Shown here: in pieces, positions 1-19,672 of the stretch
How positions within the stretch are numbered: the stretch's first letter is position 1
Layout of the letters: each line of letters starts with the position of its first letter
NCBI GenBank assembly: GCA_947625755.1
Contig: CANQPJ010000006.1
Coordinates: 1 to 64,000 of the forward strand
Origin: an uncultured Lachnospiraceae bacterium
GTDB lineage: Bacteria > Bacillota > Clostridia > Lachnospirales > Lachnospiraceae
DNA length: 64,000 nt
Reading direction: 5' to 3'
Notes under the pieces: model-generated
The model's database searches: none
Seen by the model: only the letters and a program-made list of their open reading frames with translations
Told to the model about the DNA's origin: nothing
Translations under genes and position numbers: made by a program

Positions 1-68
1 ATTCCACCTTGTGGAATTTAATCCTACAAGATAGAATTTAATCTTACAAAGTGGAATTTACTTTTACA
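1..68. repeat. Imperfect 20-bp tandem repeat with a palindrome at the window edge
   Basis: Three units of 20 bp (about 9-28, 29-48 and 49-68) share the core GGAATTTA followed by a TTACA-like end. Positions 1-17 form a perfect 7-bp inverted repeat (ATTCCAC / GTGGAAT) with a 3-nt centre. The last unit overlaps the stop codon of the acyltransferase gene at 64. The 12-mer AAGTGGAATTTA of unit three recurs at about 5845 between two other acyltransferase genes. The function is unknown; the array may continue to the left of the window. Confidence 0.6.
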
Positions 69-1068
69 AGTGACTAAAGTCATATATCACCTTACTAATT
101 CCATGCAAAAACCATGCTGCAATATAACTAAATATCAATGTCCCAACAATATATACAGGTACACTAAACCTTTCCATTAATAAGAACAAGATAAGTACAT
201 GAACAATATATACTTCATAGGAAATAGTATCAAAATGGGTTATTATCTTTATTGCTCTATCACTTTTAATATGTTTCCCCAGCCAATAGACAATTGTACA
301 TAACCATAAATCCATCACCAATAATCCATAATATATGATAATTCGATCATAAATAATCTGTCCGTCAAACTTACTATTAAAAATGATTACCATAACAGAG
401 GCAGCAACTGTAAGAACAGTAGTAATTACTATTCTTTTATTCTCTATACATTCAGGTAGAATTTTATTCCCAATAAAATATCCAACCACATAAACACCAA
501 TGGCAATAATACACCAACTTAACGTGTGACCTGCTACCATTCCAACATCTGTAAAATATGCTAGAAAAATTTGAGCAACCATTGCAAATAATACTGTTAA
601 AATTCCTATATTTTTGTTTAAATTTTTTTCTCTAATCCATTGCAACAAAGGGGTTATTATATAACAAATCATAATCAGAGTAAGAAACCAAAGTTGTCCT
701 GCCCCCCCCCTAGTATCTGCAGCCAATATGCCTTGCAAGTTAAATATATATATAAATACGTTTTTCAGATTAAATACATTCCAAACAACAGCACTCACAA
801 TAAAGTCAATTACCATAAAAATCCACATTGGAATGCAAATTCTTATCACTCTGTTTTTAAACCATTCCATCCATTTATTCACATGTTTATTTCCGTATAA
901 ATATCCTGATATAAACAAAAAAATTAAAACTCCTGAATTTGTAATCTGTATTACTATTGATTTCATGGAAAAAGATACATGCATTAATATATGGTCGCAT
1001 AAAATCATTGTCATTGCCATAACACGAATTAATTGGATTGAAATATTTCTCTTTTTTACAAAATTCAT
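64..1068 (-). CDS. Membrane O-acyltransferase (acyltransferase-3 family), poly-G tract in frame (ON)
   Basis: Probable integral-membrane acyltransferase that acetylates or otherwise acylates a surface polysaccharide. The protein is about 334 residues and almost entirely hydrophobic, with roughly ten membrane segments. The N-terminal pattern of a basic residue, IQLIRVMAM and a catalytic-type His in ILCDHILMH fits the acyltransferase-3 family, as does the FISGYL segment. The start ATG at 1068 is chosen because GAGG lies just upstream and the preceding LicD gene ends at 1088. A run of nine G on the coding strand (702-710) encodes RGG immediately before the conserved G-Q-LWFL stretch and is in frame here. 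It is the last gene of the minus-strand polysaccharide run visible in the window. The substrate cannot be told from sequence. Confidence 0.85.
   Translation of the reverse strand: MNFVKKRNISIQLIRVMAMTMILCDHILMHVSFSMKSIVIQITNSGVLIFLFISGYLYGNKHVNKWMEWFKNRVIRICIPMWIFMVIDFIVSAVVWNVFNLKNVFIYIFNLQGILAADTRGGAGQLWFLTLIMICYIITPLLQWIREKNLNKNIGILTVLFAMVAQIFLAYFTDVGMVAGHTLSWCIIAIGVYVVGYFIGNKILPECIENKRIVITTVLTVAASVMVIIFNSKFDGQIIYDRIIIYYGLLVMDLWLCTIVYWLGKHIKSDRAIKIITHFDTISYEVYIVHVLILFLLMERFSVPVYIVGTLIFSYIAAWFLHGISKVIYDFSHL
702..710 (-). repeat. Poly-G tract, 9 G (ON)
   Basis: Nine consecutive C on the plus strand, read as G on the coding strand, within the acyltransferase gene. The reading frame is open with nine. 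Loss or gain of one base would truncate the protein before the LWFL motif. Confidence 0.9.
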
Positions 1069-1087
1069 TTTAGTTGGTACCTCTTTT

Positions 1088-1916
1088 TTATTCTTCAATA
1101 GCTTTATTTTTTTCCTTTTCAACATCAAATATAACTCTCGTTGGATTATGGTTTCTTCTTTCCGATTGAGGAGGTAATTTCATATAATCACCATAGATTT
1201 GAGTTAATATCAAATCACTTTTTTGTGGTGCATAAAATTTTTTGTCTTCAAAATCAACTAAAACAGGTTCACCATACCAATCTATTGGCATTGTCTCTCT
1301 CACATAACCATACCAACTACCATAATCAATATAATAGTTTCCATTTTTGCATGACGCTGCAATTTTCTCACGTATTGACCAAATTGTTCTAATAGAAAGC
1401 GGTCGGGTTAGTCCATATAGAACTTTATGAAGCCATGAAACTTTTTTGGGACCCATAACCCTCATTAAAACAACATAGATAAATGACTGAATGAACCTGG
1501 ATTTTCCATGATACCATATTCCTTTGTTTTTCTTACTCTGATCCAATGGGAATATATCAATAAAAATTCCCTTATGACAATTCAAATTTCTCAATGCATA
1601 CTCATCAAACAAAGTATTATTCTTTCTTATCTTTGCATAAGAAAGATGGTGTTTTGGATCTGTAGATATATCCTGTAGCATATATTTCTTTCCTACCCCC
1701 CCTATGACATAATTTTATAAACTTACGATAATCTTTTCGGGGCATAGCAATATCAATATCATCATCCCATGGGATAAATCCTTTATGTCTAACCGCTCCT
1801 AATAAAGAACCTGCAGTCAAATAATAAGTAAGATTGTTTTTCTCACAAATGTTATGTACTACTTCAAGAATTTCCAACTCAACTTTTTGTAATTTTTTTA
1901 ATGTACTTACTTCCAT
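1088..1916 (-). pseudogene. licD: LicD-family phosphotransferase, frameshifted at a 7-G tract (phase-OFF)
   Basis: LicD-type nucleotidyl/phosphotransferases attach phosphocholine or similar phospho-substituents to surface glycans. The upstream part (start ATG 1916 after AAGGAG) carries the hallmark LTAGSLLGAVRHKGF-IPWDDDIDIAMPR motif. The frame breaks at seven G (1696-1702) and the rest of the family (TDPKHHLSYAKIRK, then CHKGIFIDIFPLD) continues in another frame down to 1088. With six or nine G the two pieces join into one protein of 275 or 276 residues, the usual family length. The frameshift coincides exactly with the homopolymer and both halves look otherwise undamaged, so a reversible OFF state is more likely than decay. 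It lies directly after a flippase gene and before an acyltransferase that has its own poly-G tract. An assembly error in the run is the main alternative. Confidence 0.85.
1696..1702 (-). repeat. Poly-G tract, 7 G (OFF)
   Basis: Seven G on the coding strand of licD. Six or nine would restore the frame and encode His-Arg-Gly-(Gly)-Val-Gly-Lys-Lys-Tyr. The frame breaks exactly at this run. Confidence 0.9.
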
Positions 1917-1943
1917 GATAATCTCCTTAATCACATATTTAAA

Positions 1944-3482
1944 TTATTTTTCAAAATTATCTTTCCCAATCATTTTCCTAACAAGCCGCACTGTTCCTTT
2001 TAATTCCTTTGATTTTAGATTACAAAGTGTAAATAAAGAAACTGAAATAACAACACTAATCACTAACTTGATGGCTATTTCACTCACCCCTTGAGCTGTG
2101 ACAAAGTTACACAGCAAACAGGATATAGAAGAGATTCCAATCATCTCTAATAAATAAACAACCATTTTTTTAATAAATGCAATTAATTCATCCTGATTAA
2201 ACGCCGTTGTAAAAAGATTATGTATAATCCATGGAATTCCAATAATTCCCATACTGATAACTGTTGACATCAACACTCCATAAATTCCCAATATTTTCAC
2301 TGTTGCTAAATTTAAGAACAGATTAATCATGGAAACAACAAATGGCCTGTATCGATCCTGATGCCATATTCCCGCTGCATCTTTAAACAATGTAAGCACT
2401 GCATTAATTTCATAAACCACAAAGTATAATGCAAAACAAACCACTGCATTCATGTCTAACATATTGGCTTTGCCCATCCATAATTGCATAAATGGCTGAA
2501 ACAAATTAAGAAAACAGCAGGTACACATGCAAACTGCCCACATAGAAATATATGTAATTACACCAAAATCATTATAGTTCTTCTCTTTACTTTCAGTCAT
2601 CAGGCTATTTCCGATTCCCGCGGTTAAAGAAGAATACCCAATAGCAGCCATGCCTATGATAGAAACAACTACATAATAATAATTATTATAGATGGCCAAA
2701 ACAGTTAGTCCTAAAAATGCAGAGATAACAATTGCATCTGCGGAATTTATAATTGTATCTCCTACTTTCATCATAAACAGGTCTTTGACTTTGTGATTAA
2801 TTTCTTTAATATCACTTTTTGGAAGTTTACCACCTGCCTCATATTCCGGATACATCTTACTGACAATCACTGTGGAAACAATATTAATAAAAAATTGTGC
2901 GCTCATGGCAAGCAAGATATACACATAATAATTTTTTAAAAAGATTAAAACAATAATCTGTCCAATATATAATGGTGTATCCACTAAAAGCGTTATTTTG
3001 CTCATAACATCCAGTCTCTGATAAGCAGACAACAATGATTTTTTATGTGCAAAAAATAAATATGATAACACCACAGCAATCAAATTGATATAATACAAAC
3101 CATATAGATTGATAGCTTCTGGAAAGTCTCCTTTAATCAAATAAGGTAAAAGTGGTGTAAGGCATAAACCTATTAGCAAAATAATAACTCCCACTATCCT
3201 ATAATAGAGTTTGTATAATCGCATTAATGAACAAATCTTATCCTTATCATCCTCTGCAATAGGCTTATACATGCTATATACAATCACACCTTCCACACCT
3301 AATTCTGCCAACGTTAAAATTGACAAAATCGACGTAAAAAAGCTATTTAATCCTATGTACTCCATACCTAAAAAATATAGCAATGCTGTCCGCATAAAAA
3401 ATGGAACCAGTACTTGATATATTTTTAGTATGACACCAAATATAATATTTCTTTTTGCATTTTTAGTTCTTTCCAGTTTCAT
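1944..3482 (-). CDS. Wzx/MATE-like polysaccharide flippase (oligosaccharide flippase family)
   Basis: A 512-residue integral-membrane protein with about 12-14 hydrophobic segments and the N-terminal pattern KNAKRNIIFGVILK-IYQVLVPF typical of the polysaccharide transporter (PST) branch of the MOP flippase superfamily. This family moves lipid-linked glycan repeat units across the membrane. The start is the ATG at 3482, with AAAGGAAAG upstream. It sits between an acyltransferase and licD. A second, sequence-distinct flippase lies at 7080-8534, so the locus carries two, which is unusual for one polysaccharide. The family assignment is solid; the transported substrate is unknown. Confidence 0.85.
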   Translation of the reverse strand: MKLERTKNAKRNIIFGVILKIYQVLVPFFMRTALLYFLGMEYIGLNSFFTSILSILTLAELGVEGVIVYSMYKPIAEDDKDKICSLMRLYKLYYRIVGVIILLIGLCLTPLLPYLIKGDFPEAINLYGLYYINLIAVVLSYLFFAHKKSLLSAYQRLDVMSKITLLVDTPLYIGQIIVLIFLKNYYVYILLAMSAQFFINIVSTVIVSKMYPEYEAGGKLPKSDIKEINHKVKDLFMMKVGDTIINSADAIVISAFLGLTVLAIYNNYYYVVVSIIGMAAIGYSSLTAGIGNSLMTESKEKNYNDFGVITYISMWAVCMCTCCFLNLFQPFMQLWMGKANMLDMNAVVCFALYFVVYEINAVLTLFKDAAGIWHQDRYRPFVVSMINLFLNLATVKILGIYGVLMSTVISMGIIGIPWIIHNLFTTAFNQDELIAFIKKMVVYLLEMIGISSISCLLCNFVTAQGVSEIAIKLVISVVISVSLFTLCNLKSKELKGTVRLVRKMIGKDNFEK

Positions 3483-3578
3483 ATATAATTAGTCTGCTTT
3501 CCTTTAATCAAGTTATTATATGGATAAAATTTAAGTTTTTAATAGTTAAACTTTACTCACAAAAATTGTTTCTTATAA

Positions 3579-4559
3579 TCATTTTATTTTTCCACCTACA
3601 AGAAAAGGACAATATCTTTTTAAAACGTATGCCATTAACATTGTTCCTGTCAAAGTACATACGAAATATACAATCGTACTTAACAATAAATTTGATATAT
3701 CTAAAATGTTATTTAAAATATAAATTACAGAATATTGAAGACAATATATCACTAATGAATTTATTCCAATAAACTGTAATATTTTATTTTCTTTCATATG
3801 CATACAAATTGTTATTATAATACCGGTGCCTCCAAGAATCGTAAAAAGCGCTATAATCGGATTGCCATAATCTCCCAGATATAAACTAATTCTCTCATTT
3901 CTAATAATCATAATATAGTTTCCGATAATAAACAAACCTACATAAATGGCAAACATACACCAATTAGTTATTTTATTTATTATATTTACTTCTTTTAGTA
4001 AATATCCTAGCAAAAGACAAAAAACTGCCATTATTACAACATCCAATGACCACGGTAATGCCTCATGTACATAACATGAATAAAGATGTCCTAATGTGTA
4101 AAATAAAAACATCCATAAAAAAATATGTTTTTTATTTTTTATCAAATATTTTGTCAGAATAAACATTATAATTTCAGATGTGAATAAACAGGTGAGAAAC
4201 CATGCGCCAAACTCATACCCCCCCCTCAACTGTAGCATTATACCAAAAACAATATTGATTGGAGAAATCTTATGGGAAATATTCATTATAACAGAACAAG
4301 CAGACTCAATTATCATATTTAAAACACCAAACAAGATAAAAGAAGGCCATATCAATGTTCTGGCTTTTTTCTTAATAAAGGAAAATATTGATTCCTCTTT
4401 TGGAGAGAAAGTCATACCGGACAAAATAAAAAACATTGGCAACACAAAAGAGTTAATAATCCCCTTAATAATAGGATAGGTAGGGATATGTAAACAAATC
4501 ACAAACATTGCTCCAAAAGCTTTTGTAAAATCTATCCATGTCAATCTTTTTACAGCCAT
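3579..4559 (-). CDS. Membrane acyltransferase, acyltransferase-3 family (NodC-adjacent/OatA-like), poly-G in frame (ON)
   Basis: A 326-residue multi-pass protein. It opens with LTWIDFTKAFGAMFVICLHI, the canonical acyltransferase-3 start with a catalytic-type His, followed by FVLPMFFILSGM. It probably transfers an acyl group to the surface glycan from the cytoplasmic side. The start ATG at 4559 follows AAGGAGG at good spacing. Eight G on the coding strand (4218-4225) encode RGG just before the conserved GAWFLT stretch and are in frame here. A promoter-like element that recurs elsewhere in this window lies upstream at 4633-4658, so this gene may start its own transcript. The polysaccharide context suggests glycan modification; the substrate is unknown. 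Confidence 0.85.
   Translation of the reverse strand: MAVKRLTWIDFTKAFGAMFVICLHIPTYPIIKGIINSFVLPMFFILSGMTFSPKEESIFSFIKKKARTLIWPSFILFGVLNMIIESACSVIMNISHKISPINIVFGIMLQLRGGYEFGAWFLTCLFTSEIIMFILTKYLIKNKKHIFLWMFLFYTLGHLYSCYVHEALPWSLDVVIMAVFCLLLGYLLKEVNIINKITNWCMFAIYVGLFIIGNYIMIIRNERISLYLGDYGNPIIALFTILGGTGIIITICMHMKENKILQFIGINSLVIYCLQYSVIYILNNILDISNLLLSTIVYFVCTLTGTMLMAYVLKRYCPFLVGGKIK
4218..4225 (-). repeat. Poly-G tract, 8 G (ON)
   Basis: Eight G on the coding strand, encoding Leu-Arg-Gly-Gly-Tyr just before GAWFL. The frame is open with eight. Confidence 0.9.
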
Positions 4560-4632
4560 ATTTTTCCTCCTTGATTTTGCTGCTTATCATTAATTTTATC
4601 CCTGTAATTTTTTATTTTTCAATCTAGTAAAG

Positions 4633-4658
4633 CATACCATACTTTTCTTTGATTTAAA
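4633..4658 (-). promoter_or_regulatory. Promoter-like element, copy 1 (extended -10)
   Basis: On the minus strand TTTAAA (4658-4653) is followed at 16 bp by GTATGGTATGCT, an extended -10 of the form TGnTATGCT, and then a conserved downstream GAAAAATA. Closely similar blocks occur at 18072-18098 and 20893-20919, each upstream of a polysaccharide gene. Promoter function is inferred from the boxes and their repetition. Confidence 0.55.
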
Positions 4659-4666
4659 AACATGAC

Positions 4667-4759
4667 TTACACATTTCTACTATTTTCGCATGATTGTAAA
4701 TTTTTTTCAATATTAAATATAACTCTTGTTGGATTATAATTTTTCTTTCTTCTTCGGGC
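4667..4759 (-). pseudogene. Remnant of a LicD gene 3' end
   Basis: On the minus strand, codons downstream of the acyltransferase stop read RRKKNYNPTRVIFNIEK and run to a stop at 4667. This closely matches the C terminus of the LicD gene at 1088 (RRNHNPTRVIFDVEK). The rest of the gene is missing. This indicates that a second licD once followed the acyltransferase at 4781-5794, or that recombination between licD ends reshuffled the locus. Confidence 0.75.
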
Positions 4760-4780
4760 AAAAAAAGTTTTCCCACTACT

Positions 4781-5794
4781 CTAAACAACTCCAAACCACT
4801 TACTTATTCTATTACCAAAAATTTTATGAAATATCATTACAAATGCCAGACTTACAGCAAAAACTAAAAAGCTATTTATTATGTACGGAACACATGAGTA
4901 GCCGGGTATCTTCTGCAAAACAGTTTTCATCATAAGATGAGAAAGATATATCCCAAAAGAATAATTTCCTACAGTCACCAACCATTTAGGACAAAACTTA
5001 TTTTTATCGTCCTTTATATAACAATACGCTATTAACAGAAACAACAAGCTGGTCAAATAATTAGATAATTGTAACTGAGAGCCAAAATTACTGTACCCTG
5101 CTCGCATTAAAATATAATTCTCTAGTATTTGTACTGGCAAAGACAGCATATAAAGTAAAATAATTCGTTGAATCTTATAATCCTTCTTTATCAAACCATT
5201 GCCCAGCATCAATCCAAAATAATAGAATATAACCCATGCCAGACAAGATACATTCAAAATTACTTGAGTATTCTTACCATATACATGACCTGTGAAAAAC
5301 GCAAAATACTTGTACGAAATTAGAAAAATTGGAGAAACAAGCCATCCAATCCATCTAAATCGGGAAAATATTAATTTTTTTAAAACGGGAGTTAAAATTA
5401 CAAGTTCTATGTATACAAAAATATAATAAAATGCATAATTTGCATTTGTAGTTATCAAAAGTTTCAGTAATACAAGGAACCCTTCTTTAATGTCCATATG
5501 TCTTATTATAGGAAATGCATACAAGATGGTCCAGATTATATATGGTATAATAACCCTGAAAATTCTTTTTTTATAAAAAGACCACCAGTCATTTCTATCA
5601 ATTTTAGTTAAATACCCTGATAAAAAAATAAACAAGGGTACTGCGTAATTTATAATCGGTCTACAGACAACCTGACACACACCACTTGGCGTTGTATGTA
5701 TTAAAATAACTGCAACAATTGCCAAGGCTCTTAAAACCTGTATTTTATCCTGTCTTGCTGAAGAACTGTACCCCCCCCTCATCATCCGTAACAT
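4781..5794 (-). CDS. Membrane acyltransferase, acyltransferase-3 family, poly-G next to the start codon (ON)
   Basis: A 337-residue multi-pass protein with the family opening DKIQVLRALAIVAVILIHT and the FIFLSGYL segment, followed by about ten membrane spans. It probably acylates a polysaccharide. The start ATG at 5794 lies behind AGGAGG with a fairly long 11-base spacer. Unlike the other acyltransferases here, the eight-G tract (5772-5779) lies within the first nine codons (MLRMMRGGY), before the conserved domain, so slippage would remove the entire protein. The tract is in frame. The gene is followed by a LicD remnant at 4667-4759. Upstream is a 178-bp AT-rich gap with no convincing gene. 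Confidence 0.85.
   Translation of the reverse strand: MLRMMRGGYSSSARQDKIQVLRALAIVAVILIHTTPSGVCQVVCRPIINYAVPLFIFLSGYLTKIDRNDWWSFYKKRIFRVIIPYIIWTILYAFPIIRHMDIKEGFLVLLKLLITTNANYAFYYIFVYIELVILTPVLKKLIFSRFRWIGWLVSPIFLISYKYFAFFTGHVYGKNTQVILNVSCLAWVIFYYFGLMLGNGLIKKDYKIQRIILLYMLSLPVQILENYILMRAGYSNFGSQLQLSNYLTSLLFLLIAYCYIKDDKNKFCPKWLVTVGNYSFGIYLSHLMMKTVLQKIPGYSCVPYIINSFLVFAVSLAFVMIFHKIFGNRISKWFGVV
5772..5779 (-). repeat. Poly-G tract, 8 G (ON)
   Basis: Eight G on the coding strand at codons 6-8, encoding Arg-Gly-Gly-Tyr just after the start. The frame is open with eight. Confidence 0.9.
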
Positions 5795-5972
5795 TATAAT
5801 TATTTCCTCCTATTTATGTATTAAACTTTTTCTAAATAACAGAAGTGGAATTTATACATATACAATATAAATCTCTTAAGTATTCAATTTTGGATTTTCT
5901 ATATTCTTTTATTATTTTCTCTCGTTATAGATAATTCATTAATAATAAATATTTCTATTATAAGTACAAATA

Positions 5973-7039
5973 TTATTTTTTATTTATTACCAGATGAAAA
6001 AATGTAATATGATTTATAAACCATTTAAAAAGCATCGCCAAAATTAACGTGGTCACTAGAGAAACGCAAAACAAAATATAGTCATTATCTATCATTCTGC
6101 TAAATATCATCAAAGGAATCCTTTGTAATATATATATCTCAAAAGTGTACTTTCCTAATAATCTTAATATTTTATTGTTCACAGATATTTTCATACTTAA
6201 AATAACAATGGTTAAAATAAAGAATATACTAAAAATCTGATAAAAGAAATCATCAGAATACCATACACCACCGTTAAAAATTCCTAGATGCACCATACAC
6301 AACAGACCTAGAACCAAAATTGTCAATAATACTCCAACACAATACCTAACATTGTTTTTCTGCAAAACCGCTTCTATCTGTTTTTTATACAGTTGATACA
6401 TCATTCCCGCAGGATATACCAAAATGGTATTATACCAATGGCTTCCCTTTCTGCTATAAGTTAAAACCACAATATATACACAGCACATAAAAATTAAAAA
6501 TATAACTGAATGTATTTTATTATTCCTTATAAATTTAAATGCAATATATGTAAAAAAATACAAGGATAACATTGCGAAAATATACCAATTACTGTTTCCA
6601 ATATCTGTCCATGCAAAAAAAGCAACTATGATTTTAAGCGGACTATAATAATTTCCAATACATATATCAACTAAAAGAAATAGTAGAATTGCAAATACAA
6701 ATTGAATCCAAACCTTGAATATCCTACTCTTTGGAATTGATTCAATATATTCCGAACCTTTTTTACATATCTGATACATAATTCCGTATCCGGAAAAAAA
6801 TAAAAAAGGTACTACAATCAGCTGTCCCATAAAAACATCTATGGCAATAGCTAAATTATCGTACCCCCCCCTATAGTTTCAGCGTACTGGGAATAATGCC
6901 TGTAAAAAACCAATAAAACAAAAATTCCGTTGATTGCCATCGTTTTATCTTTTGAAAGATAATCCGCAAAATAATTCTTACCCGAAAACTTTATGCCATA
7001 TAAACATAAAATAATAATAAGAAAATAAAATATATTCAT
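5973..7039 (-). pseudogene. Membrane acyltransferase, frameshifted at an 8-G tract (phase-OFF)
   Basis: The upstream part (ATG at 7039 after AAAGGATGAG) contains one membrane segment and the family opening MAINGIFVLLVFYRHYSQY with its His. It then hits eight G (6864-6871) and a stop at 6851. The continuation in the other frame (VVPFLFFSGYGIMYQ and about nine membrane spans, ending at 5973) is the rest of an acyltransferase-3 protein. With nine G the pieces join as ETIGGGYDNLAIAID into a single protein of 355 residues. No other damage is visible, so this looks like a reversible OFF state. It lies between a flippase and another acyltransferase. Confidence 0.85.
6864..6871 (-). repeat. Poly-G tract, 8 G (OFF)
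   Basis: Eight G on the coding strand of the acyltransferase. Nine or six would restore the frame. Translation as written stops about five codons after the tract. Confidence 0.9.
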
Positions 7040-7079
7040 ATCTCTCATCCTTTCTACATTTGTATTTTAAACTTATTTT

Positions 7080-8534: not shown

Positions 8535-8549
8535 GACGTTTTTGCCTTT

Positions 8550-9824: not shown

Positions 9825-9864
9825 TACTTAATCCTCTCAATTATGAATTCATATAGAAACAGTT

Positions 9865-10986
9865 TTAAGACAAATAAATCTCTTCCAATTGTTTTGCTAC
9901 CTGTTTAATGTCATACCCAGCATTCACCACTTGCAATTTATAACTTTTTCTTTTTTTCTTATGAATCTTTATTAATTCATCAGCTTTTTTCGCCCATATG
10001 TGCATAGGAGTTTCCAGAGATAGATACTCTACCAGCCCCGTAATCCCCGCATCTTTTGGAACTCTATCGGAAGCCAGACAAGGAAGTCCAGATGTTTGAG
10101 CTTCAATTAATACAATCCCAAGTCCTTCAAATTTTGATGGAAACAATAAAATATCCATCGCCTGATACCATTCATTTGAGTTTTGTATTTTTCCCAAAAA
10201 AATCACATTTTGTGTAATACCATATTTATTTATCATTCTTTTCATGTCTTCACATAATTTGCCTTCACCGGCAAAGACAAATTTAGCATTTGGATCCATT
10301 TTGATATATTCTCTAAAAATATCTATAGCAAATAGTGGATTTTTTGTATCAACCAAGCGACCAACCATTCCAAATACAACATCGTTTTCAGATATATGAT
10401 ACTGTTTTCGCAATTTTTCTCTAATAAATTGATTATAATCAAACTTATCCACATTAATTCCATTCTTCAACAACGTATATGGCTTTCCGGGGAACATAAA
10501 ATCTGCCGCCATATCAGAGCATGCCAAATACTTTGTAGGAGTTCTCATGATTTCACGACGGACTTTGCATTTTCGGACTTTTGCCACTATTTTATTGAAT
10601 CCATATTTTGCAAAACTATTGTGTGAGTGAAGTATTCTCAATGGAATACCTGCCTTTTTTGCCATAGCCAACGGAAAAGCGTATTCAAAATTTGCGTTTA
10701 CATGAATTCCTACCACTTCAGGGTGTTCCTTAAAATAGTCTAGCCAACATTTCCGATATTTTATTAACGACTCTCTTTGTGAATATAATATTCTAAAAAC
10801 TCTTCCCCCCATTGCTATTATTTCATCCTCAAATGCAATCTTTCCATGATTATGAGAAGTCAAAAAATCAAATTGAATTTTTTTTCTATCAATGTTTTTA
10901 TATAAATTATATACTAAACACTCAATTCCACCATATCCACTTGAATAACCCCATATTGCTATTCTTTTTATATTATTACTTTCCAT
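9865..10986 (-). CDS. Glycosyltransferase family 4
   Basis: A 373-residue GT-B enzyme. The N-terminal acceptor domain opens RIAIWGYSSGYGGIECLVYNLYKN. The C-terminal nucleotide-sugar domain has VVFGMVGRLVDTKNPLFAIDIF, then FVFAGEGKL, then LFPSKFEGLGIVLIEAQTSGLP, with the E-x7-E pattern of GT4 retaining transferases. It probably adds one sugar to the lipid-linked repeat unit in the cytoplasm. ATG at 10986 follows TAAGGAG. A six-G run lies at 10805-10810 but the gene is in frame; it may be incidental. Confidence 0.88.
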   Translation of the reverse strand: MESNNIKRIAIWGYSSGYGGIECLVYNLYKNIDRKKIQFDFLTSHNHGKIAFEDEIIAMGGRVFRILYSQRESLIKYRKCWLDYFKEHPEVVGIHVNANFEYAFPLAMAKKAGIPLRILHSHNSFAKYGFNKIVAKVRKCKVRREIMRTPTKYLACSDMAADFMFPGKPYTLLKNGINVDKFDYNQFIREKLRKQYHISENDVVFGMVGRLVDTKNPLFAIDIFREYIKMDPNAKFVFAGEGKLCEDMKRMINKYGITQNVIFLGKIQNSNEWYQAMDILLFPSKFEGLGIVLIEAQTSGLPCLASDRVPKDAGITGLVEYLSLETPMHIWAKKADELIKIHKKKRKSYKLQVVNAGYDIKQVAKQLEEIYLS

Positions 10987-11012
10987 TTTACTCCTTACTC
11001 AATATCTGCTTT

Positions 11013-12002
11013 TTATCTGTGATATTCATTTTTCCCTTTCAACTTCATCATATAAAATATTTTTTTCATTCTCTCATATGTAATCGGTATAAAACAAAAA
11101 CATATGTATTTCAATTTAAAGAGAAGAGAAACTTCTTTATTTCGAATCGTTTTCCAAAAATACTTCCTTGTCTTTTTCTTATATTCTTTTATATACTTCT
11201 TCGGTGCATTAATAATTAATAGTCTGTACAGTACATCGTGAAAACCTTTCATTTTAAAATAATCTAAAGCAGTATTGTCACTATAGCCAATATCTTCCAA
11301 ATAATTGCACACTTTTTCCGTAACTTTAATTCTATCAAAAGTGTGTTCATTAAAATCTGATGATGTACATATAGAATTCTCCCTTACTCTATAAAAATAC
11401 ATTGGTCTTGGATCAAAATGAAGCCTATCTATTTTTGAATATAACACAGCATGTGTATATCTGTCTTCTTCATTTAATCCCAACGGAAATCTCAATTCAG
11501 TAAATAACTTTTTAGGAAACAGCTTATCCCACGTTCCACCTGCAAGACCATTTTTAAAATATAAAAAATCATGTAATGCCTGTTCTCCAGTGAATATTGT
11601 TTCAGGTAGTTGAGACTCTAGTTTATGATCCTTAAATACTTTACAAACACCAATTCTGGAAATATCTGCGTGATTTTTTATCAAATTATTATATAGAGTT
11701 TCATAAAACTTAACATCAACCCAATCATCGCTATCTATAAATCCGATATAGTCTCCGGTACAAATATCTAAACCTGCATTTCTAGCAGAAGATAATCCCC
11801 CATTTTGTTTGTGTATAACTTTTATTCTATTATCCCTTTTTGCCCAGTCATCACAAATTTGGGGACAATTATCGGGTGAGCCATCATCAACCAGAATTAT
11901 TTCAAGATTTTTGTAGGTCTGGTTAATAACACTTTCTACACACTCATTAAGATACTCTTCAACCTTATATATTGGAATAATAACACTAATTAATGGTTCC
12001 AT
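11013..12002 (-). CDS. Glycosyltransferase family 2
   Basis: A 329-residue GT-A enzyme with the classic start PLISVIIPIYKVEEYLNECVESV, nucleotide-binding ILVDDGSPDNCPQICD, GGLSSARNAGLD and the metal-binding IDSDDWVD. It probably transfers a sugar to the surface polysaccharide repeat unit. The C terminus has a hydrophobic and basic stretch (LLFKLKYICFCFIPITYER) that may sit at the membrane. The start lies 3 bp after the stop of the pyruvyl transferase gene, consistent with translational coupling. The sugar cannot be predicted. Confidence 0.92.
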   Translation of the reverse strand: MEPLISVIIPIYKVEEYLNECVESVINQTYKNLEIILVDDGSPDNCPQICDDWAKRDNRIKVIHKQNGGLSSARNAGLDICTGDYIGFIDSDDWVDVKFYETLYNNLIKNHADISRIGVCKVFKDHKLESQLPETIFTGEQALHDFLYFKNGLAGGTWDKLFPKKLFTELRFPLGLNEEDRYTHAVLYSKIDRLHFDPRPMYFYRVRENSICTSSDFNEHTFDRIKVTEKVCNYLEDIGYSDNTALDYFKMKGFHDVLYRLLIINAPKKYIKEYKKKTRKYFWKTIRNKEVSLLFKLKYICFCFIPITYERMKKIFYMMKLKGKNEYHR

Positions 12003-12004
12003 AT

Positions 12005-13165
12005 TTATGCCTCTATTACTTTCTTTAAATACTCTTTTGATTGCTTAATCCAATCATTTAATATATCATCTATTTTTCTATAATCTATATCGTTATTCCA
12101 TATAAGCAACATATCACTGTCACTTTCTACTCTTCTGTATTGCAATTCTAATTGACTAAGAAGAGACTCCAGGCGAGAATTTGTTGAGCCAGAACTTCCC
12201 TCCTTGAATCTATTGAATACAACAAATTTTTTATGAAACATAATCGAAAATATTGTTGCATGAAAAGAGTCCGCCAAGACATATTCTGCATTTGCAATCA
12301 AATTAATAAATTCTTCTGGTCCAGCTGTATTTACAGCAATATCTCCAAAACTATTATCTGACTTAATATATACAGCCGCATGGCGTATTGTCACTATCTT
12401 ATATCCCGTATTCTCTTTTAATTTTTCTGCCCACTTTCTATGTGATGGATTATTACCCAAAAAATGACAATAAATATATTTTTCTTTAATAATTGCTTCC
12501 TTTCCGGCAATATTTCTCCATTCATTTGCTTTTATCAATAATGTAGGATCAACTACTACCGGGACCTCTTTTCCCGTAAGACTATTATAGATTTTTGCTC
12601 CTTCTTTTTCTCTTGCAGAAAAACAATCAAATCTATTTAATTCCTTTTTTGCTTTCCTACGAACTGTAATTGGAAGTTTTGATAATCCAAAACTAGCTGC
12701 ATATGCTATTTTTTTTATATTGTCAGGAACAAAAGATAATGTATGATACCCAAATATAATATCTTTTGGACATAGTAACTGATCACTGCCTAACATTATC
12801 AAATCATATTTCTCACATTCTTTCGATATTTCATTCAAACATTTGTAGGGTTTTGATAATATCAAATTTTGGCTAATAAATTGATCAAACTTTTGATTTC
12901 TGATTGTTCGTATATTATTATACTCATCATTGTAGTTAGCGTTTTTAATATTTTTTAATTTTTTCAACACTGCTTTTGGTTTAAGCAGTTGTATTGATTT
13001 TAATCTTACATAATGCTGTATTTTAGCCTTTTTTGTAGGAATATTTTCGAATTGAATTGCTTCAATATCATAACCCATATCATGTATTGCCCTTTGCGTT
13101 GCATAACACTGTAGCAAACTTCCATAATTATGTATATAATAATTGCACACAAGACCTATCTTCAT
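12005..13165 (-). CDS. Polysaccharide pyruvyl transferase family protein
   Basis: A 386-residue protein of the CsaB/WcaK-type pyruvyl transferase family, which adds ketal pyruvate to glycans from phosphoenolpyruvate. The N terminus MKIGLVCNYYIHNYGSLLQ matches the G-x-N-x-G-S-x-LQ region of the family. Later parts include LIMLGSDQL, ICHFLGNNPSHRKW-like sugar-binding context and ANAEYVLADSFHATIFSIMFHKKFV, the conserved D-S-F-H-A motif. The start is ATG 13165 after AGGTAGAG. Pyruvylation would give the polymer a negative charge. The reaction is inferred from family membership. Confidence 0.85.
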   Translation of the reverse strand: MKIGLVCNYYIHNYGSLLQCYATQRAIHDMGYDIEAIQFENIPTKKAKIQHYVRLKSIQLLKPKAVLKKLKNIKNANYNDEYNNIRTIRNQKFDQFISQNLILSKPYKCLNEISKECEKYDLIMLGSDQLLCPKDIIFGYHTLSFVPDNIKKIAYAASFGLSKLPITVRRKAKKELNRFDCFSAREKEGAKIYNSLTGKEVPVVVDPTLLIKANEWRNIAGKEAIIKEKYIYCHFLGNNPSHRKWAEKLKENTGYKIVTIRHAAVYIKSDNSFGDIAVNTAGPEEFINLIANAEYVLADSFHATIFSIMFHKKFVVFNRFKEGSSGSTNSRLESLLSQLELQYRRVESDSDMLLIWNNDIDYRKIDDILNDWIKQSKEYLKKVIEA

Positions 13166-13174
13166 ATTTATACT

Positions 13175-14149
13175 CTACCTTTTAAATATTTTCTGATGTA
13201 TTCTTTTCATCCAAAATTTAAAATCATCCCTTATAATATTTTTTTTCTGGTTATTTTTGTATTTCCATTTAATTTGTTGATAATTTTCCAAAGTAATTTC
13301 CGAAACCTCTAAATTACTAAAATTATTAGCAGAAATCTTATATACCGGTACAAAAAGATTATCCATATTAATGCTCATCTTTCTGCTTTGTAGATGTATA
13401 TATAAAAATTCTCTGTGTAATAATTTTCCTTCTTCTATATAGTACTGTTCAATATTTCCATGATTCCATATAAACACCCCTTTCTGTTCCATTTCCCTAA
13501 CAAAGGTGTGACTTTTATCATCGTATTTAACTATTCCTAAATCAGTACCTCGTCTGCTAATATTAGCAGAAAAATCTTTTTCAAAAAGTGTGTGATTATT
13601 TTCTCTCCATATCCAATTTATATTATTTTCTAAAAAATCCTCATCAAATGTAAAAGCTCGTGGTTGAGAAAACGCATTTATATATGGTTGAATTCCATTT
13701 AAAGTGTCTTTAAAATACATGTTACATTCTTTAGTGTTTTTATATAGTGTACAATGCCCAAGACAAAATATTTTTTCGTATTTTTTTAACATGTCTTCGG
13801 TCACAAAATTATTAATATTTCCAAATATGACATCGCAGTCACAATGCCCCCAAAATTCATATTCCTTTAAATATTTCTCAAATATATATCCATAAGCTGG
13901 ACGAAAATCACATATTTTATGTGGTTTGTCTAAACTTATTTTAAAGTCAAATTTGGATTGTATAAGTTTTTTAATACTATCAAAATCTGTATAGTGTACA
14001 ATCACATTCTCCGGATACATATATTTTGTTTTATCATCTGTAAAAATCATCCAATCCCAATCTTCATTTTCTTTACAAGAATTTAGAAACAATTGAAAAT
14101 AATTATTAAATTTTCCTATATATGGTATTATAAATACGCCTTTCTTCAT
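13175..14149 (-). CDS. DUF6625-like putative glycosyltransferase
   Basis: A 324-residue soluble protein. It opens GVFIIPYIGKFNNYFQLFLNS and carries WDWMIFTDD, ICDFRPAYGYIF, then the acidic FWGHCDCDVIFGN, which resembles a DxD metal site, and later EDFLENNINW. This pattern fits the DUF6625 group found in polysaccharide loci and is compatible with a GT-A fold. Function is unproven; it is probably another sugar transferase of this locus. ATG 14149 follows TAGGAG. The gap to the following pyruvyl transferase gene is 9 bp, so the two are probably co-translated. Confidence 0.65.
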   Translation of the reverse strand: MKKGVFIIPYIGKFNNYFQLFLNSCKENEDWDWMIFTDDKTKYMYPENVIVHYTDFDSIKKLIQSKFDFKISLDKPHKICDFRPAYGYIFEKYLKEYEFWGHCDCDVIFGNINNFVTEDMLKKYEKIFCLGHCTLYKNTKECNMYFKDTLNGIQPYINAFSQPRAFTFDEDFLENNINWIWRENNHTLFEKDFSANISRRGTDLGIVKYDDKSHTFVREMEQKGVFIWNHGNIEQYYIEEGKLLHREFLYIHLQSRKMSINMDNLFVPVYKISANNFSNLEVSEITLENYQQIKWKYKNNQKKNIIRDDFKFWMKRIHQKIFKR

Positions 14150-14163
14150 TTTACTGTATTCTC

Positions 14164-15276
14164 CTATTCTGCTTTTTTATTATTCATCACTAATTGTAAT
14201 AAATCATTCCAATTCTTAATAATCGTTTGCAAATTAAATTTTTCCATATTCATTAATGCTTTTTTAGAAAAATTCACTCTTTTTACATCATCATGCATTA
14301 ACTTTGTCAATACTCTGCCCATTGCCTTTACATTCATTTCCACCAAATAACCATTCTCTCCATCTTCCACCAACTCTGCCGGTCCTGTCTTGCACCGGAA
14401 GCTAACAATTGGCAGCTTATAAGGCTTCGTTTCAAGCAATGTCATTGGTAAGCCTTCAAATCTAGACGTCATTACAAAAATTGCTGCATTCTCATAATAT
14501 TCTCCCACATTGTTGACATTACCTTTTAATATAACTTGCTCCTGCAGATTATACTCACTGATTTTATTTTCCAGTAACGCTCTATCTTCTCCCTCTCCTA
14601 AAATAATCCACTTCCACTGAGGATTTTCAAACATAATATCTTTTGCAACTTCCACTAACATATCAAATCCTTTTTGGTATGTTAATCTGCCAACACTAAG
14701 AAGAACTCTTGAATCTTTATTATAATAATGTTCCTTATTATCCCAAATCACAGGGTTATAAATACACTGAATGGGACATTTTATTTTGAGATTATCGTTA
14801 TAATAACCTTTATCCTCTTCTGTTAATGTAACAATCGCATCTGCCCATTTTGCAGCCATTCTTCTTGAGACTTTTCTATAAGAAACAAATGGATTCTGAT
14901 AAAAATTAAAATGCTCCCATGATATTACTTTTACTCCTGTAAACAATTTTGCCGGCAGAGAATATAAGTCTAAAATACCATCAATATCCACTAACACATC
15001 AATGTTGCTTTTTTTTATAAATTTAATCAGCCTGTGGATAATACCGACAATATGAGTAATGCTTCTCTCTAAATAAGCATATAATTTATATGTTGTTATG
15101 TTAGAATCTATCTCATAAAAAGACTCTTCTCTACGTTCTTCTAAGCTTAAAAAAGATACATTATATTTTTCATTCTTACATAATTCATTTGCTATAATAA
15201 TTGAAACTCTTTCGGTACCACCGCTTCTTGTAATATCGCCTGAAAAGAAGCATAGATTAATTTTTTCTTTTTTCAT
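14164..15276 (-). CDS. Glycosyltransferase family 4
   Basis: A 370-residue GT-B enzyme. It begins KINLCFFSGDITRSGGTERVSIIIA and has the donor-binding VLLSVGRLTYQKGFDMLVEVAKD, WIILGEGEDRALLE and TSRFEGLPMTLLETKPYKLP with the E-x7-E motif. The start ATG at 15276 is preferred over an earlier in-frame ATG because GGAG lies just upstream and the homologous region starts here. It is transcribed with the genes on either side. Donor and acceptor sugars are unknown. Confidence 0.9.
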   Translation of the reverse strand: MKKEKINLCFFSGDITRSGGTERVSIIIANELCKNEKYNVSFLSLEERREESFYEIDSNITTYKLYAYLERSITHIVGIIHRLIKFIKKSNIDVLVDIDGILDLYSLPAKLFTGVKVISWEHFNFYQNPFVSYRKVSRRMAAKWADAIVTLTEEDKGYYNDNLKIKCPIQCIYNPVIWDNKEHYYNKDSRVLLSVGRLTYQKGFDMLVEVAKDIMFENPQWKWIILGEGEDRALLENKISEYNLQEQVILKGNVNNVGEYYENAAIFVMTSRFEGLPMTLLETKPYKLPIVSFRCKTGPAELVEDGENGYLVEMNVKAMGRVLTKLMHDDVKRVNFSKKALMNMEKFNLQTIIKNWNDLLQLVMNNKKAE

Positions 15277-15411
15277 ATAATACTCCATTTTAAGCATTAC
15301 CAGCCATGTATTTTCAAATGTTTTTAAATAAAAAGTAAATATTTTAAAATAGAAACATATCAATCTGGCATTAGATAAATAATCACTTATGATTACACTA
15401 ATACATCTTTT

Positions 15412-16494
15412 TTATCCACGTATACCCCAATTATCTGTATTAAAAATCAGTATATATAGAAGTGGAAAAGTTGACGCTTCATGGCGGACAAAAGAACCAA
15501 AATCTGGCTCGAACAACACAGAGCCCATAAAATATGCAATAAAAACACTCAATGCCAAAATCTGTTTAAAATCCATTCTATAAAGGCGAAAAAATGCTTT
15601 TACAAGATAGAAAATCAGGAAAATTTCAAATACAACAAATGGCAAATAGTAAATTCCTCCTTTTAGTAATTCAATCGGAATTGCCATTCGCAAGCTATTA
15701 ATAATATAGTTTGCCATAAACAACGAAAGTTTACCATTGTGTTCTATCTTATCATCAATCACGGAATCTGCTCCTAATTGAGTAGTATTTTCTTTACATA
15801 CCATGACAGCATCATAATCCTCCGGCATAGTTTCTCTTGCTATACCTAAAAAGGCAAATACAACCGTATACAATATAAGCACAATCATGACACCCTTTAT
15901 GAAACTAATCTTTACATTTTTCTTTCTTAAAAACCATATTCCCAATACAAGAACCAAAAAGAAAAAAGCAATAATAATATAATAATTTTTATAAAAAGTA
16001 CTTTCCCAATATAAAACTGCAAAGCAGCCCGCAATTTTAAACGCTTTTTTTATCTTTAAGTTAATCACTATAAACAACAAAATAAAAAATAATAGCTGTA
16101 TTGCATCTTTACCCACATTATAAATATAAATATTTAATATTCCGGTATACATCAGAGCAAAAACTATCTGCTTAAGGTCCAAACCTTTATTTTTTATAAA
16201 AAGTATAATAAACAAAATATTAAATATAATCCCTAAACAAATACTCCATTGCAACCTTGTGGTAAAATGAAATATATTTATATTTCTAAAAAAATCTGCT
16301 GCTATTTTATATGAGCCTCCCCAGCTGTAAATATATTTAGGGTTATTTATCATATTCAAAATACGATTACTATCATAAAAATACTTTGCCGGCAAATAAA
16401 GATGCTCTATTAGTTTTGCAAAAAACGCCACAAGAATCATGAGCGGAATTATATACCTGACATTTTCCTGATATGTTTTTTCTACTTTATTCAC
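15412..16494 (-). CDS. Polymerase-like membrane protein, copy A
   Basis: A 360-residue integral-membrane protein of about ten spans, starting with GTG at 16494 after ATGGAGAAC. I do not recognise a precise family. The size, topology and setting recall Wzy/EpsG-type polysaccharide polymerases, which link repeat units outside the membrane. A diverged duplicate at 19657-20794 keeps a very similar sequence throughout (for example MVCKE-TTQLG, and LYILIFN-DNW near the end). It directly follows the GT39-like gene with a 25-bp gap. Polymerase function is inference. Confidence 0.65.
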   Translation of the reverse strand: MNKVEKTYQENVRYIIPLMILVAFFAKLIEHLYLPAKYFYDSNRILNMINNPKYIYSWGGSYKIAADFFRNINIFHFTTRLQWSICLGIIFNILFIILFIKNKGLDLKQIVFALMYTGILNIYIYNVGKDAIQLLFFILLFIVINLKIKKAFKIAGCFAVLYWESTFYKNYYIIIAFFFLVLVLGIWFLRKKNVKISFIKGVMIVLILYTVVFAFLGIARETMPEDYDAVMVCKENTTQLGADSVIDDKIEHNGKLSLFMANYIINSLRMAIPIELLKGGIYYLPFVVFEIFLIFYLVKAFFRLYRMDFKQILALSVFIAYFMGSVLFEPDFGSFVRHEASTFPLLYILIFNTDNWGIRG

Positions 16495-16519
16495 AAAATG
16501 TTCTCCATTTCCATATTTT

Positions 16520-17992
16520 TTATTTTTTCTTTAATAATCTTAAATTTTGTGTTTTATATACTTCCTCATAATTCTGAAATATTACATCATCAAATACATT
16601 TTCCCCATTTGTACTAAGAACGATATATTCGGCTTTTCGTGAAGCAAAAAAATCCTTTAGTTCATTCTGCATATCGGAACTGGCACTGCTTTGCCAATCC
16701 TGTAATATAAAATATTTGTAACACGGTTTTATTTCAGTCACTAGATAAAAATATGCATTAACGTTATAGGCAATAGTTGCATTCCTATTCTGTTTCGGAA
16801 TTTGTTCTAAAATTTCATTGGCCTCTTTCTCATATAGCGCTGCGCTACTACTTGTTTGTGTGTTATAGCAATTCTGATAGATTCTGACATACTTATATGC
16901 AACTAATACAATACACACTGACAGTATTATCATTGTTATTCTCTTTAATTTTTCCTCTTGCAAAATCTCTTTTATTTGACCAATCGCAACAAATAATATA
17001 GGAATATAAGCAATCATATAATGTGTATACATTAAACCAGATAACTGATAAACAATGCAACATATACTTGTAAAGATAATCAGATAAGAAATCCATTTAT
17101 CTTTTTTGAAACATTTGACATGTAATATTCCTACAATCACTGCAACAAAAAACAAGTGGAAATAATATACTATATTTATGATATAATCATACAGACTAAA
17201 ATGACAAACCGTTTTAGATGCATACATTATATTATAAATAAGTGTTCCATAAATCATATCATATAATGCGTCATGATATGTAAAATAAACAAGAAAAGGA
17301 ATACAAATACATACCATCCCCATCAAAAAAAATATAATATTTATAATAATATTTCCCCATTGTTTATTTTTGATTAGGATTATAAAGCCAATAAAAATTG
17401 CACAACATAAGACCAATGCATTTGTTATTCTTGTCAATAAACATACCGCAAATGTAATACCATAAAAGAAGGAATACCATTTATTATGTTTTACCCCCCC
17501 CTCACTATTCTGGATAAATTTAACAGCAAAGTACATACTCCACATTAAAAAAGGAAGACAGTAAGACTCTGTCAATCCCCCTACTCCATATAATCTAAAA
17601 ATAATAAGGCTTAAAGCAGTTAAAATCACCCGTATCTTGTGTTGATAAAACAACCCCAAAATTTTATATACACCACCTAGAGACACAGTAACAATTATTA
17701 TTGTTACTATCATTGCTCCGATTTTAGGATTAGTAAAAATTTCTATCAAATAATTCACAAGTACGGTTATTGGTCCTTTATGATCAAAGAAATCCTTATA
17801 CGGAATCATTCCTTTTTTTAAGAACAAACCTAGACACAAAAAAATATCTCCATCACCACCGTAATTTCCTTTGTCAAATAACAGTGATAGCCATCTGAAA
17901 TGGCTCATATAATATACACTGGAAAATAGAAACAAAAATAAAATTGTTATATATTTATTTGTTTCCATCTTTTTCAATAAATTATGCATCAT
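16520..17992 (-). CDS. GT39-like membrane glycosyltransferase, poly-G tract in frame (ON)
   Basis: A 490-residue multi-pass protein. The first loop has YGGDGDIFLCLGLFLKKG and then YKDFFDHKGP, an acidic luminal loop typical of GT-C enzymes of the GT39/ArnT type that use polyprenyl-phosphate sugars outside the membrane. About eleven spans follow, and a small soluble C-terminal domain. The ATG pair at 17992 follows GAAAGGATA. An eight-G tract (17494-17501) encodes SEGGVKHNKW and is in frame. It lies first in the polysaccharide run, behind a promoter-like element at 18072-18098. A switch here could add or remove a side-chain sugar. Confidence 0.75.
   Translation of the reverse strand: MMHNLLKKMETNKYITILFLFLFSSVYYMSHFRWLSLLFDKGNYGGDGDIFLCLGLFLKKGMIPYKDFFDHKGPITVLVNYLIEIFTNPKIGAMIVTIIIVTVSLGGVYKILGLFYQHKIRVILTALSLIIFRLYGVGGLTESYCLPFLMWSMYFAVKFIQNSEGGVKHNKWYSFFYGITFAVCLLTRITNALVLCCAIFIGFIILIKNKQWGNIIINIIFFLMGMVCICIPFLVYFTYHDALYDMIYGTLIYNIMYASKTVCHFSLYDYIINIVYYFHLFFVAVIVGILHVKCFKKDKWISYLIIFTSICCIVYQLSGLMYTHYMIAYIPILFVAIGQIKEILQEEKLKRITMIILSVCIVLVAYKYVRIYQNCYNTQTSSSAALYEKEANEILEQIPKQNRNATIAYNVNAYFYLVTEIKPCYKYFILQDWQSSASSDMQNELKDFFASRKAEYIVLSTNGENVFDDVIFQNYEEVYKTQNLRLLKKK
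17494..17501 (-). repeat. Poly-G tract, 8 G (ON)
   Basis: Eight G on the coding strand, encoding Ser-Glu-Gly-Gly-Val in a loop between membrane spans. The frame is open with eight. Confidence 0.9.
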
Positions 17993-18069
17993 TATAGTTT
18001 ATCCTTTCTGAAAAAATTATATCATTTACTGAATATTCCCCCTTAATTTTCTATTTTTCGACCCAATAA

Positions 18070-19491: not shown

Positions 19492-19672
19492 ATGGGATGC
19501 ATTAACAAAATTATAGGACATACAAAACTAACAGAACTTTTAAACAGTCCTGTTAGTTTTGTATGTCCCTTCTCATGCACAAAGAAGCATTCCAGCAATT
19601 GGAGGCTTGACTATGTTAATCTATGTTTTGAGCTGAAGTAAAGAAGATTAATGTATTCAATCTTGATAAGCT
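19492..19672 (+). pseudogene. aroE remnant with an internal deletion
   Basis: The upstream region, promoter, ribosome binding site and first codons match the intact aroE at 21144 closely (MGCIN-I-GHTKLT-LL-SPV). The frame survives about 50 codons to a stop at 19641. Sequence from about 19633 matches intact aroE from about 21594, so roughly 300 bp has been deleted. A stretch after SPV is replaced by the reverse complement of nearby sequence. It is clearly non-functional. Confidence 0.85.
19516..19568. repeat. Perfect 19-bp inverted repeat in the aroE remnant
   Basis: The arm GGACATACAAAACTAACAG at 19516-19534 has its exact reverse complement at 19550-19568, with a 15-nt loop. The intact aroE has only a weak quasi-palindrome here. 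Confidence 0.9.

Follow-up and report, generated by a model that had tools for sequence, protein, structure and literature searches.

Poly-G tracts as probable contingency loci in a surface-polysaccharide cluster of a Lachnospiraceae-like bacterium

Are long guanine runs within a surface-polysaccharide cluster switches that turn single genes on and off, or are they an outcome of composition, protein need or gene decay? The question is raised by a stretch of 64,000 nucleotides of an uncultured Lachnospiraceae bacterium (assembly GCA_947625755.1, contig CANQPJ010000006.1, positions 1-64,000; hereafter the window), in which six runs of seven to nine G are located in six genes, all within positions 1-18,000. 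Gn stands below for a run of n guanines and Gn+ for a run of at least n. Based on their number, their reading frames and their recurrence in related species, these runs are very probably contingency loci, and a Lachnospiraceae-like bacterium would use them for slipped-strand poly-G phase variation of its surface glycan.

The first-pass annotation had reported six runs of 7-9 G on the coding strand, all in genes of glycan decoration, with no run longer than six elsewhere, and a run scan of the whole window gave the same picture (table 1). The + strand reads C at all six sites, and therefore the G is on the coding (-) strand in every case. Five of the six positions were reproduced as given, whereas the fourth tract is located at 5771-5778 and not at 5772-5779. 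Outside the six, the maximum is G6, which occurs twice (10805 and 20070), and the contig's next 20 kb contain no run of G6 or longer. The exact run lengths of the window, taken on both strands, are bimodal (79 G4, 21 G5, 2 G6, 1 G7, 4 G8 and 1 G9).

Six such runs had been considered unlikely by chance in AT-rich DNA, which holds for G8+. In dinucleotide shuffles of positions 1-18,000, a segment picked because the runs sit there, the five observed G8+ runs stand against a mean of 0.09 (maximum 2) and the six G7+ runs against a mean of 0.37 (maximum 4); neither observed number was reached in 1,000 shuffles. When the tracts of this 18-kb locus were collapsed before shuffling, the G8+ mean was 0.055. 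Shuffles of the whole window gave a G8+ mean of 0.67 (maximum 4 in 300) for the five observed; at this scale G7+ alone is weak, with six observed, a mean of 2.7 and a maximum of 9. Pattern searches of the whole genome, counted by hand, showed 16 G7+ and 13 G8+ runs, and a search for G14 gave no match. The 18-kb locus, 0.8% of the genome sequence, contains five of the 13 G8+ runs (binomial 4e-8, for a region chosen after the fact). The excess over chance of runs of at least seven is firm for G8+ and weak for G7 alone across the whole window.

The runs could also be harmless by-products of Gly-Gly codons or of local composition, with no role in switching. The in-frame runs do encode Gly codons (RGG, EGG, KGG and GGG), and a single synonymous change is sufficient to create a run, as in the GT-C glycosyltransferase genes of two sister species (G021 and G019). 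Yet, when the four in-frame genes were recoded synonymously from the window's own codon usage, the G8+ mean was 0.019 (maximum 1), and the four observed were not reached in 2,000 recodings. For 50 genes of the window, the G8+ mean was 0.19 (maximum 3 in 300, four observed); at the G7+ level the observed four were reached (mean 0.70, maximum 4). GGG makes up 11% of the Gly codons, those of the tracts counted in. Composition points the same way, as the G+C content of the locus (29.5%) is below that of positions 18,000-64,000 (37.6%). Moreover, the Gly-Gly pair at the tract of the window's GT-C gene (column 170 of the family alignment) has no counterpart in the other 25 homologues of the alignment, and in two genes the frame breaks precisely at the run. 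The by-product explanation is left with a slim chance.

Four genes had been described as in frame and two as broken exactly at the run, and open reading frames (ORFs), Pfam matches and frame analysis agree with this description. In detail, the genes with tracts at 702, 4218, 5771 and 17494 are open through the tract, and the LicD gene (1696) and one AT3 acyltransferase gene (6864) are split at it. On the 3′ side of every tract a single frame is open for 202-330 codons and the remaining two close in 1-26 codons, so that a slip of one base truncates an open gene. Past the tract, the two split genes are open for 202 and 297 codons, and the off-frames of nine neighboring genes reach at most 62. 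The two LicD parts match consecutive stretches of the family profile (1-48, then 57-227). In comparison with the G021 homologue, identity by codon position is 0.72/0.80/0.53 in the upstream part (75 codons) and 0.64/0.73/0.43 in the downstream part (193 codons), and both halves are constrained codon by codon. No second frame break besides the tract was found in LicD or in the AT3 gene at 6864. The split genes are therefore free of any frame break beyond the tract, as expected of an OFF phase.

Split genes at homopolymers may alternatively be decaying pseudogenes or assembly errors, with the tracts as incidental mutation hotspots. Indel mutations and base-call errors both gather at homopolymers, and the assembly (2.25 Mb, 99.5% complete; labelled G000 in comparisons) is a draft. 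It comprises 51 contigs, and contig 6, whose first 64,000 bases are the window, begins with a 77-base overlap of the kind that an assembly graph with k=77 would leave. Decay or error nevertheless leaves several features unaccounted for, namely the lack of a further frame break in either gene, the codon-position constraint in both LicD halves, and a LicD position that is in frame or split depending on species. In addition, tracts split two more genes of this genome, an AT3 gene (L037) and an ornithine-cyclodeaminase-like gene (L038), and in each the two parts match a single Pfam family. Decay or error is thus judged very unlikely for the LicD and AT3 (6864) genes.

Members of the GT-C family turned up at 29 places, spread over 17 of the 23 genomes of the genus, this one included. 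The alignment comprised 26 of them; L097, L098 and L103 were left out as partial or distant, and L103 (G021:C7, run at 31320) has a G8 of its own and is a dropped positive. Four of the 26 aligned genes carry G8, at columns 170 (the window gene), 232, 273 and 506, all in frame, and the remaining members show no run above G6. At column 273, the G021 and G019 copies share 93% DNA identity and differ by a synonymous change, with G8 in the one and GGCGGGG in the other.

In the case of LicD, the tract position is common to three species, as a G7 with a split gene in the window, a G8 with a split gene in G021 and a G8 with an open gene in G020. G021 also has an intact LicD paralogue that lacks the tract. 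The LicD homologues of the three species thus include putative ON and OFF states, and the OFF genes are otherwise intact. AT3 tracts are placed at the N-terminus, 5′ of the G-x-W-F motif, in the middle and at the C-terminus, with clustering at the second of these sites. Independent origin at different sites of one family would be easier to explain by selection for mutability than by descent or by a need of the protein.

The same tracts would also suit recoding, in which ribosomal or transcriptional slippage on the run yields some full-length protein and the run tunes the ratio of products. Recoding has been reported at Neisseria contingency loci, according to the title of a reference within PMC9187656. 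The differing run positions within the GT-C family seem to fit slippage on DNA better. As the explanation of the tracts recoding is extremely unlikely; it could coexist with phase variation.

Similar tracts are distributed in the genus. A G8 run was found in 15 of 23 species; G002 was set aside, all its matches being <100 bases from the start of one contig. By hand count, G021 has 34 G8+ tracts and G020 has 22, and 16 of the 34 in G021 are packed in 48 kb of one contig on a single strand. Tract genes were typed in part (five batches of 10 pieces, plus 10), and the frame states of tracts in other genomes are approximate, with a classifier that is crude near gene ends. In typed glycan genes are placed 38 of 69 G8+ tracts (7 in this genome, 13 in G020 and 18 in G021). 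The types counted are AT3, LicD, GT2, GT4, GT8, PMT_2 or GT-C homologues, hexapeptide acetyltransferase, sugar 2,3-dehydratase, sulfatase-type and nucleotidyltransferase-aminotransferase. Six of the seven AT3 loci of this genome carry a G8+ tract. A candidate multi-gene poly-G contingency set in surface-glycan genes, which goes beyond chance and protein need and recurs in sister species, is supported by these comparisons of sequences.

According to the mechanism proposed, replication slippage at a G-tract would add or drop one base, the changed length would move translation beyond the tract out of the long frame into one of two that end within 26 codons, or back again, and each gene would alternate between a full-length (ON) and a truncated (OFF) protein. 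The enzymes affected would be four AT3 O-acyltransferases, LicD, of a phosphocholine-type transferase family, and one GT-C glycosyltransferase, each of which may add or omit one decoration or sugar. Cells of one clone would then carry surface polysaccharides that differ in their acyl groups, in phosphodiester substituents and in one sugar. The sequences show the tracts, their excess, the frames, and recurrence and repeated origin in related species, whereas slippage, its reversibility, the change of the glycan and any benefit, such as protection from phage or from recognition by a host, are inferred.

The core of the first-pass interpretation, multi-gene poly-G contingency tracts in surface-glycan genes, is upheld by the excess, the frames and the relatives, and of the gene types that it named, acyltransferases (four AT3 genes) and LicD were recovered by Pfam, and GT-C is indicated through the gene's G021 relative (PMT_2). 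Three additions to it are unsupported. The set was called coordinated, and nothing was found that links the tracts, which by default would change independently. The "up to 64 glycan states" are arithmetic only. A spore-forming Clostridium is unsupported as the host. The nearest named relative is the metagenome-assembled genome of an uncultured Eubacterium sp. (69% identity over AroD-AroK), and the family as sampled comprises at least 250 genera, a size that would fit Lachnospiraceae. The syntenic stretch of this relative (L039, 12.6 kb) shows no run above G6.

Several points weigh against phase variation at these sites. The LicD tract is only a G7, which is the bare cut-off, and the tracts are mostly G8, below the peak of 9-10 in Campylobacter (an excerpt of PMC6321876). 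No length variant was seen, with one genome per species and a search for assembly copies that spans positions 1-9,000 and not 17494. That search returned no second copy of 1-9,000, other than the 77-base contig-end overlap and short contig-end repeats, among 40 scored of 171 candidates; likewise, viral contigs gave no strain variants in two scans that covered two of the six tracts. In eight of the 23 genomes of the genus, G8 is absent. Among the 69 G8+ tracts of the three genomes, 31 have no placement in a typed glycan gene and belong to other enzymes (such as aldo-keto reductases, AMP-binding, ornithine-cyclodeaminase-like, TPP enzyme and DNA methylase), two mobile-element genes, repeats, genes with no Pfam match, no clear gene, or untyped pieces. 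AT3 loci with G8+ are fewer in the relatives (5 of 10 in G021, 5 of 15 in G020 and 1 of 5 in G019, by comparison of coordinates). Genes may also be missing, because the cluster stops at the contig end. Finally, MutS1, the mismatch-repair protein examined, is full length, so loss of MutS does not account for slippage.

Lost mismatch repair was considered as a driver of the tracts and is not supported for MutS1. The protein is full length in this genome and above the family cut-off in 19 of the 23 genus genomes, including G000, G019, G020 and G021. The four genomes below the cut-off (G003, G013, G016 and G017; two with a weak match only, one with fragments only and one with none) have 1, 1, 0 and 0 G8 matches, respectively. 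Genomes that lack MutS1 are thus not rich in tracts.

The mechanism itself is known from other bacteria; the reports cited here are drawn on by excerpt. The Campylobacter phasome, defined with PhasomeIt at a cut-off of seven G, resembles the present case in its several genes with intragenic poly-G of at least seven on the coding strand; tracts of at least eight mediate switching there for a subset of genes, and 77% of the poly-G/C tracts are in ORFs, few with C on the coding strand (PMC6321876). It differs in that the present bacterium belongs to another phylum, its targets are AT3, LicD and GT-C genes of a presumed Gram-positive polysaccharide, and the case is known from sequence alone. A sortase-pilus switch of Bifidobacterium breve, a Gram-positive gut commensal, operates ON/OFF through replication slippage at an intragenic G-tract (PMC9187656). 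In that actinobacterium two pilus clusters are involved and the switch was shown experimentally, whereas the candidate genes here are many and encode glycan enzymes.

Among surface-glycan AT3 O-acetyltransferases, oafA of Haemophilus influenzae and oafB of Salmonella are under phase variation (PMC9558356). Those are single genes of Gram-negatives, controlled by tetranucleotide repeats (according to a reference title) or epigenetically (PMC9558356), in contrast to poly-G at six of seven AT3 loci of one genome. In the excerpt of a review, genomes with many phase-variable loci seem confined to pathogens, long simple repeats are listed for 246 species, and a simple-repeat switch is given for a Gardnerella sialidase (PMC11868660). 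Candidate repeats in new genera are therefore not rare, and the features that stand out here are the concentration of tracts in one gene class and their repeated origin. If the host is a commensal, the three related species with 13, 34 and 22 G8+ runs would be a counter-example to the remark on pathogens in that excerpt (PMC11868660). Reviews of gut surface glycans describe capsule phase variation in Bacteroides, with no poly-G case of Lachnospiraceae in the excerpts at hand (PMC12355684 and PMC12413058). PMC6437147 was considered as a Lachnospiraceae precedent and set aside, as its excerpt deals with C. jejuni tracts. No report of poly-G phase variation in Lachnospiraceae was recognized in the open-licence literature searched; the mechanism is known, and the multi-gene case in this group is one for which no report was found in that literature. 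If the reading is true, strain typing, phage and antibody studies of such bacteria would face a moving surface.

On a wider scale, a G9 run was found in 161 of the 250 genomes sampled from the family and in 88 of the 196 sampled from the class, in a very uneven distribution. These counts are not read as phase variation, since several genomes have long runs at contig ends or in repeated CGGGGGGGGG contexts, which may be artefacts or other elements. In the genus of G123, 20 fetched stretches contain 22 runs of at least G8, one of which, a G23, is located at the end of a contig. Of ten gene pieces typed there, one had no match, and the others include solute-binding proteins, AraC-type regulators, a methyltransferase, a GT4 and a WcbI-type gene. 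Such runs in other genera are a lead to a wider phenomenon and not a demonstration of it. Poly-G contingency loci may be recurrent and repeatedly reinvented in commensal-type Lachnospiraceae, as phasomes of tens of genes in which Gly codons or loop insertions of surface-glycan enzymes have become G8-G11 runs, with solute-binding lipoproteins and response regulators as targets in other genera and a DNA methylase in one sister species; for this broader proposal the chances are about even.

Table 1. Poly-G tracts and genes in the first 18 kb of the window. States (ON, OFF) are putative.
Feature	Position	Strand	Evidence and remarks
G9 tract	702-710	-	RGG codons, shortly 5′ of AT3 G-x-x-W-F motif (motif seen in alignment)
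G7 tract	1696-1702	-	At LicD split; same place as G8 of G021 and G020 LicD homologues
G8 tract	4218-4225	-	RGG codons, then GAWFL motif
G8 tract	5771-5778	-	AT3 N-terminus, five codons after ATG
G8 tract	6864-6871	-	AT3 frame break
G8 tract	17494-17501	-	Unconserved loop of GT-C gene; none at that column in 25 other aligned homologues
AT3 membrane acyltransferase	64-1128	-	Pfam PF01757, 2.5e-27, 96.3 bits; open through G9 (putative ON)
LicD, downstream part	1088-1681	-	Pfam PF04991, 1.4e-15, profile 57-227; frame other than upstream part
LicD, upstream part	1617-1934	-	Pfam PF04991, 1e-25, profile 1-48; gene split at tract (putative OFF)
Membrane protein of 512 amino acids	1944-3482	-	No Pfam match; flippase-like by appearance
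AT3 acyltransferase	3579-4559	-	Pfam, 8.5e-22, 78.1 bits; open through G8 (putative ON)
AT3 acyltransferase	4781-5794	-	Pfam, 9.6e-29, 100.9 bits; G8 near ATG (putative ON)
AT3, downstream part	5973-6830	-	Pfam, 8.1e-13, 48.6 bits; profile 45-325
Presumed N-terminal part of AT3 5973-6830	6851-7048	-	Other frame, no Pfam match alone; assigned by position (putative OFF)
Flippase, Polysacc_synt-type	7080-8534	-	Pfam; no G7+ tract
Glyphos_transf-like	8550-9824	-	Pfam; no G7+ tract
GT4	9865-10986	-	Pfam; no G7+ tract
GT2	11013-12002	-	Pfam; no G7+ tract
Pyruvyltransferase	12005-13165	-	Pfam; no G7+ tract
DUF6625	13175-14149	-	Pfam; no G7+ tract
GT4	14164-15363	-	Pfam; no G7+ tract
Putative polymerase-like membrane protein	15412-16494	-	No Pfam match; no G7+ tract
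GT-C type membrane glycosyltransferase	16520-17992	-	Homology; open through G8 (putative ON)

Based on ORFs and Pfam, the first 18 kb form a polysaccharide cluster encoded on the - strand. All four AT3 genes exceed the curated Pfam cut-off of PF01757 (31 bits), and both LicD parts that of PF04991 (22.6 bits), with 91.6 and 58.4 bits. The product of 16520-17992 has no direct Pfam match, and its 59% identical relative in G021 matches PMT_2 (PF13231, 2.4e-10). An AroD-AroK fusion gene adjoins the cluster on its upstream side. Positions 1-77 of the window are identical to the first 77 bases of contig C16, and bases 34-71 are similar to end sequences of five further contigs; as the contig start matches other contig ends, the cluster may extend beyond the assembly break.

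A second copy of the membrane-protein gene at 15412-16494 is located at 19657-20794 and is split exactly at the G6 of 20070-20075, into frames of 247 and 119 amino acids; the intact copy has LGAD at this site. The G6 is either a short incipient tract or the mark of a pseudogene.

Tracts were also observed in other types of genes and outside genes. The longest run of this genome, a G11 (G000:C36:2402; L038:2402), is the one that splits the ornithine-cyclodeaminase-like gene, and a TupA-like ATP-grasp gene with a G7 adjoins it. A G8 and a G9 (G000:C23:27622 and 27886; L034) are placed in AAA_25- and NikA-like (mobilization) genes near a contig end. Three G8-G9 runs (G000:C17:36568, C20:22581 and C11:355) are outside long genes; two are beside ATATATGTAAAT-type repeat units, and one of the three sits in a small inverted repeat. 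In G021, a G9 (C5:29394; L168:1895) splits the frame of a DNA methylase gene (N6_N4_Mtase), which may be a phase-variable methylase. The same G9 with the same near flanks is found outside long frames in G019 (C2; L058:6723) and G021 (C42; L178:2055), on contigs that each carry two AT3 genes nearby, and is possibly a promoter-type tract. In the genus of G123, G9 runs are located in genes of solute-binding proteins (L147, L152 and L160) and AraC-type regulators (L151, L153 and L155), and in two untyped cases (L126 and L134) the G9 is positioned 3′ of what by eye appears to be a lipobox.

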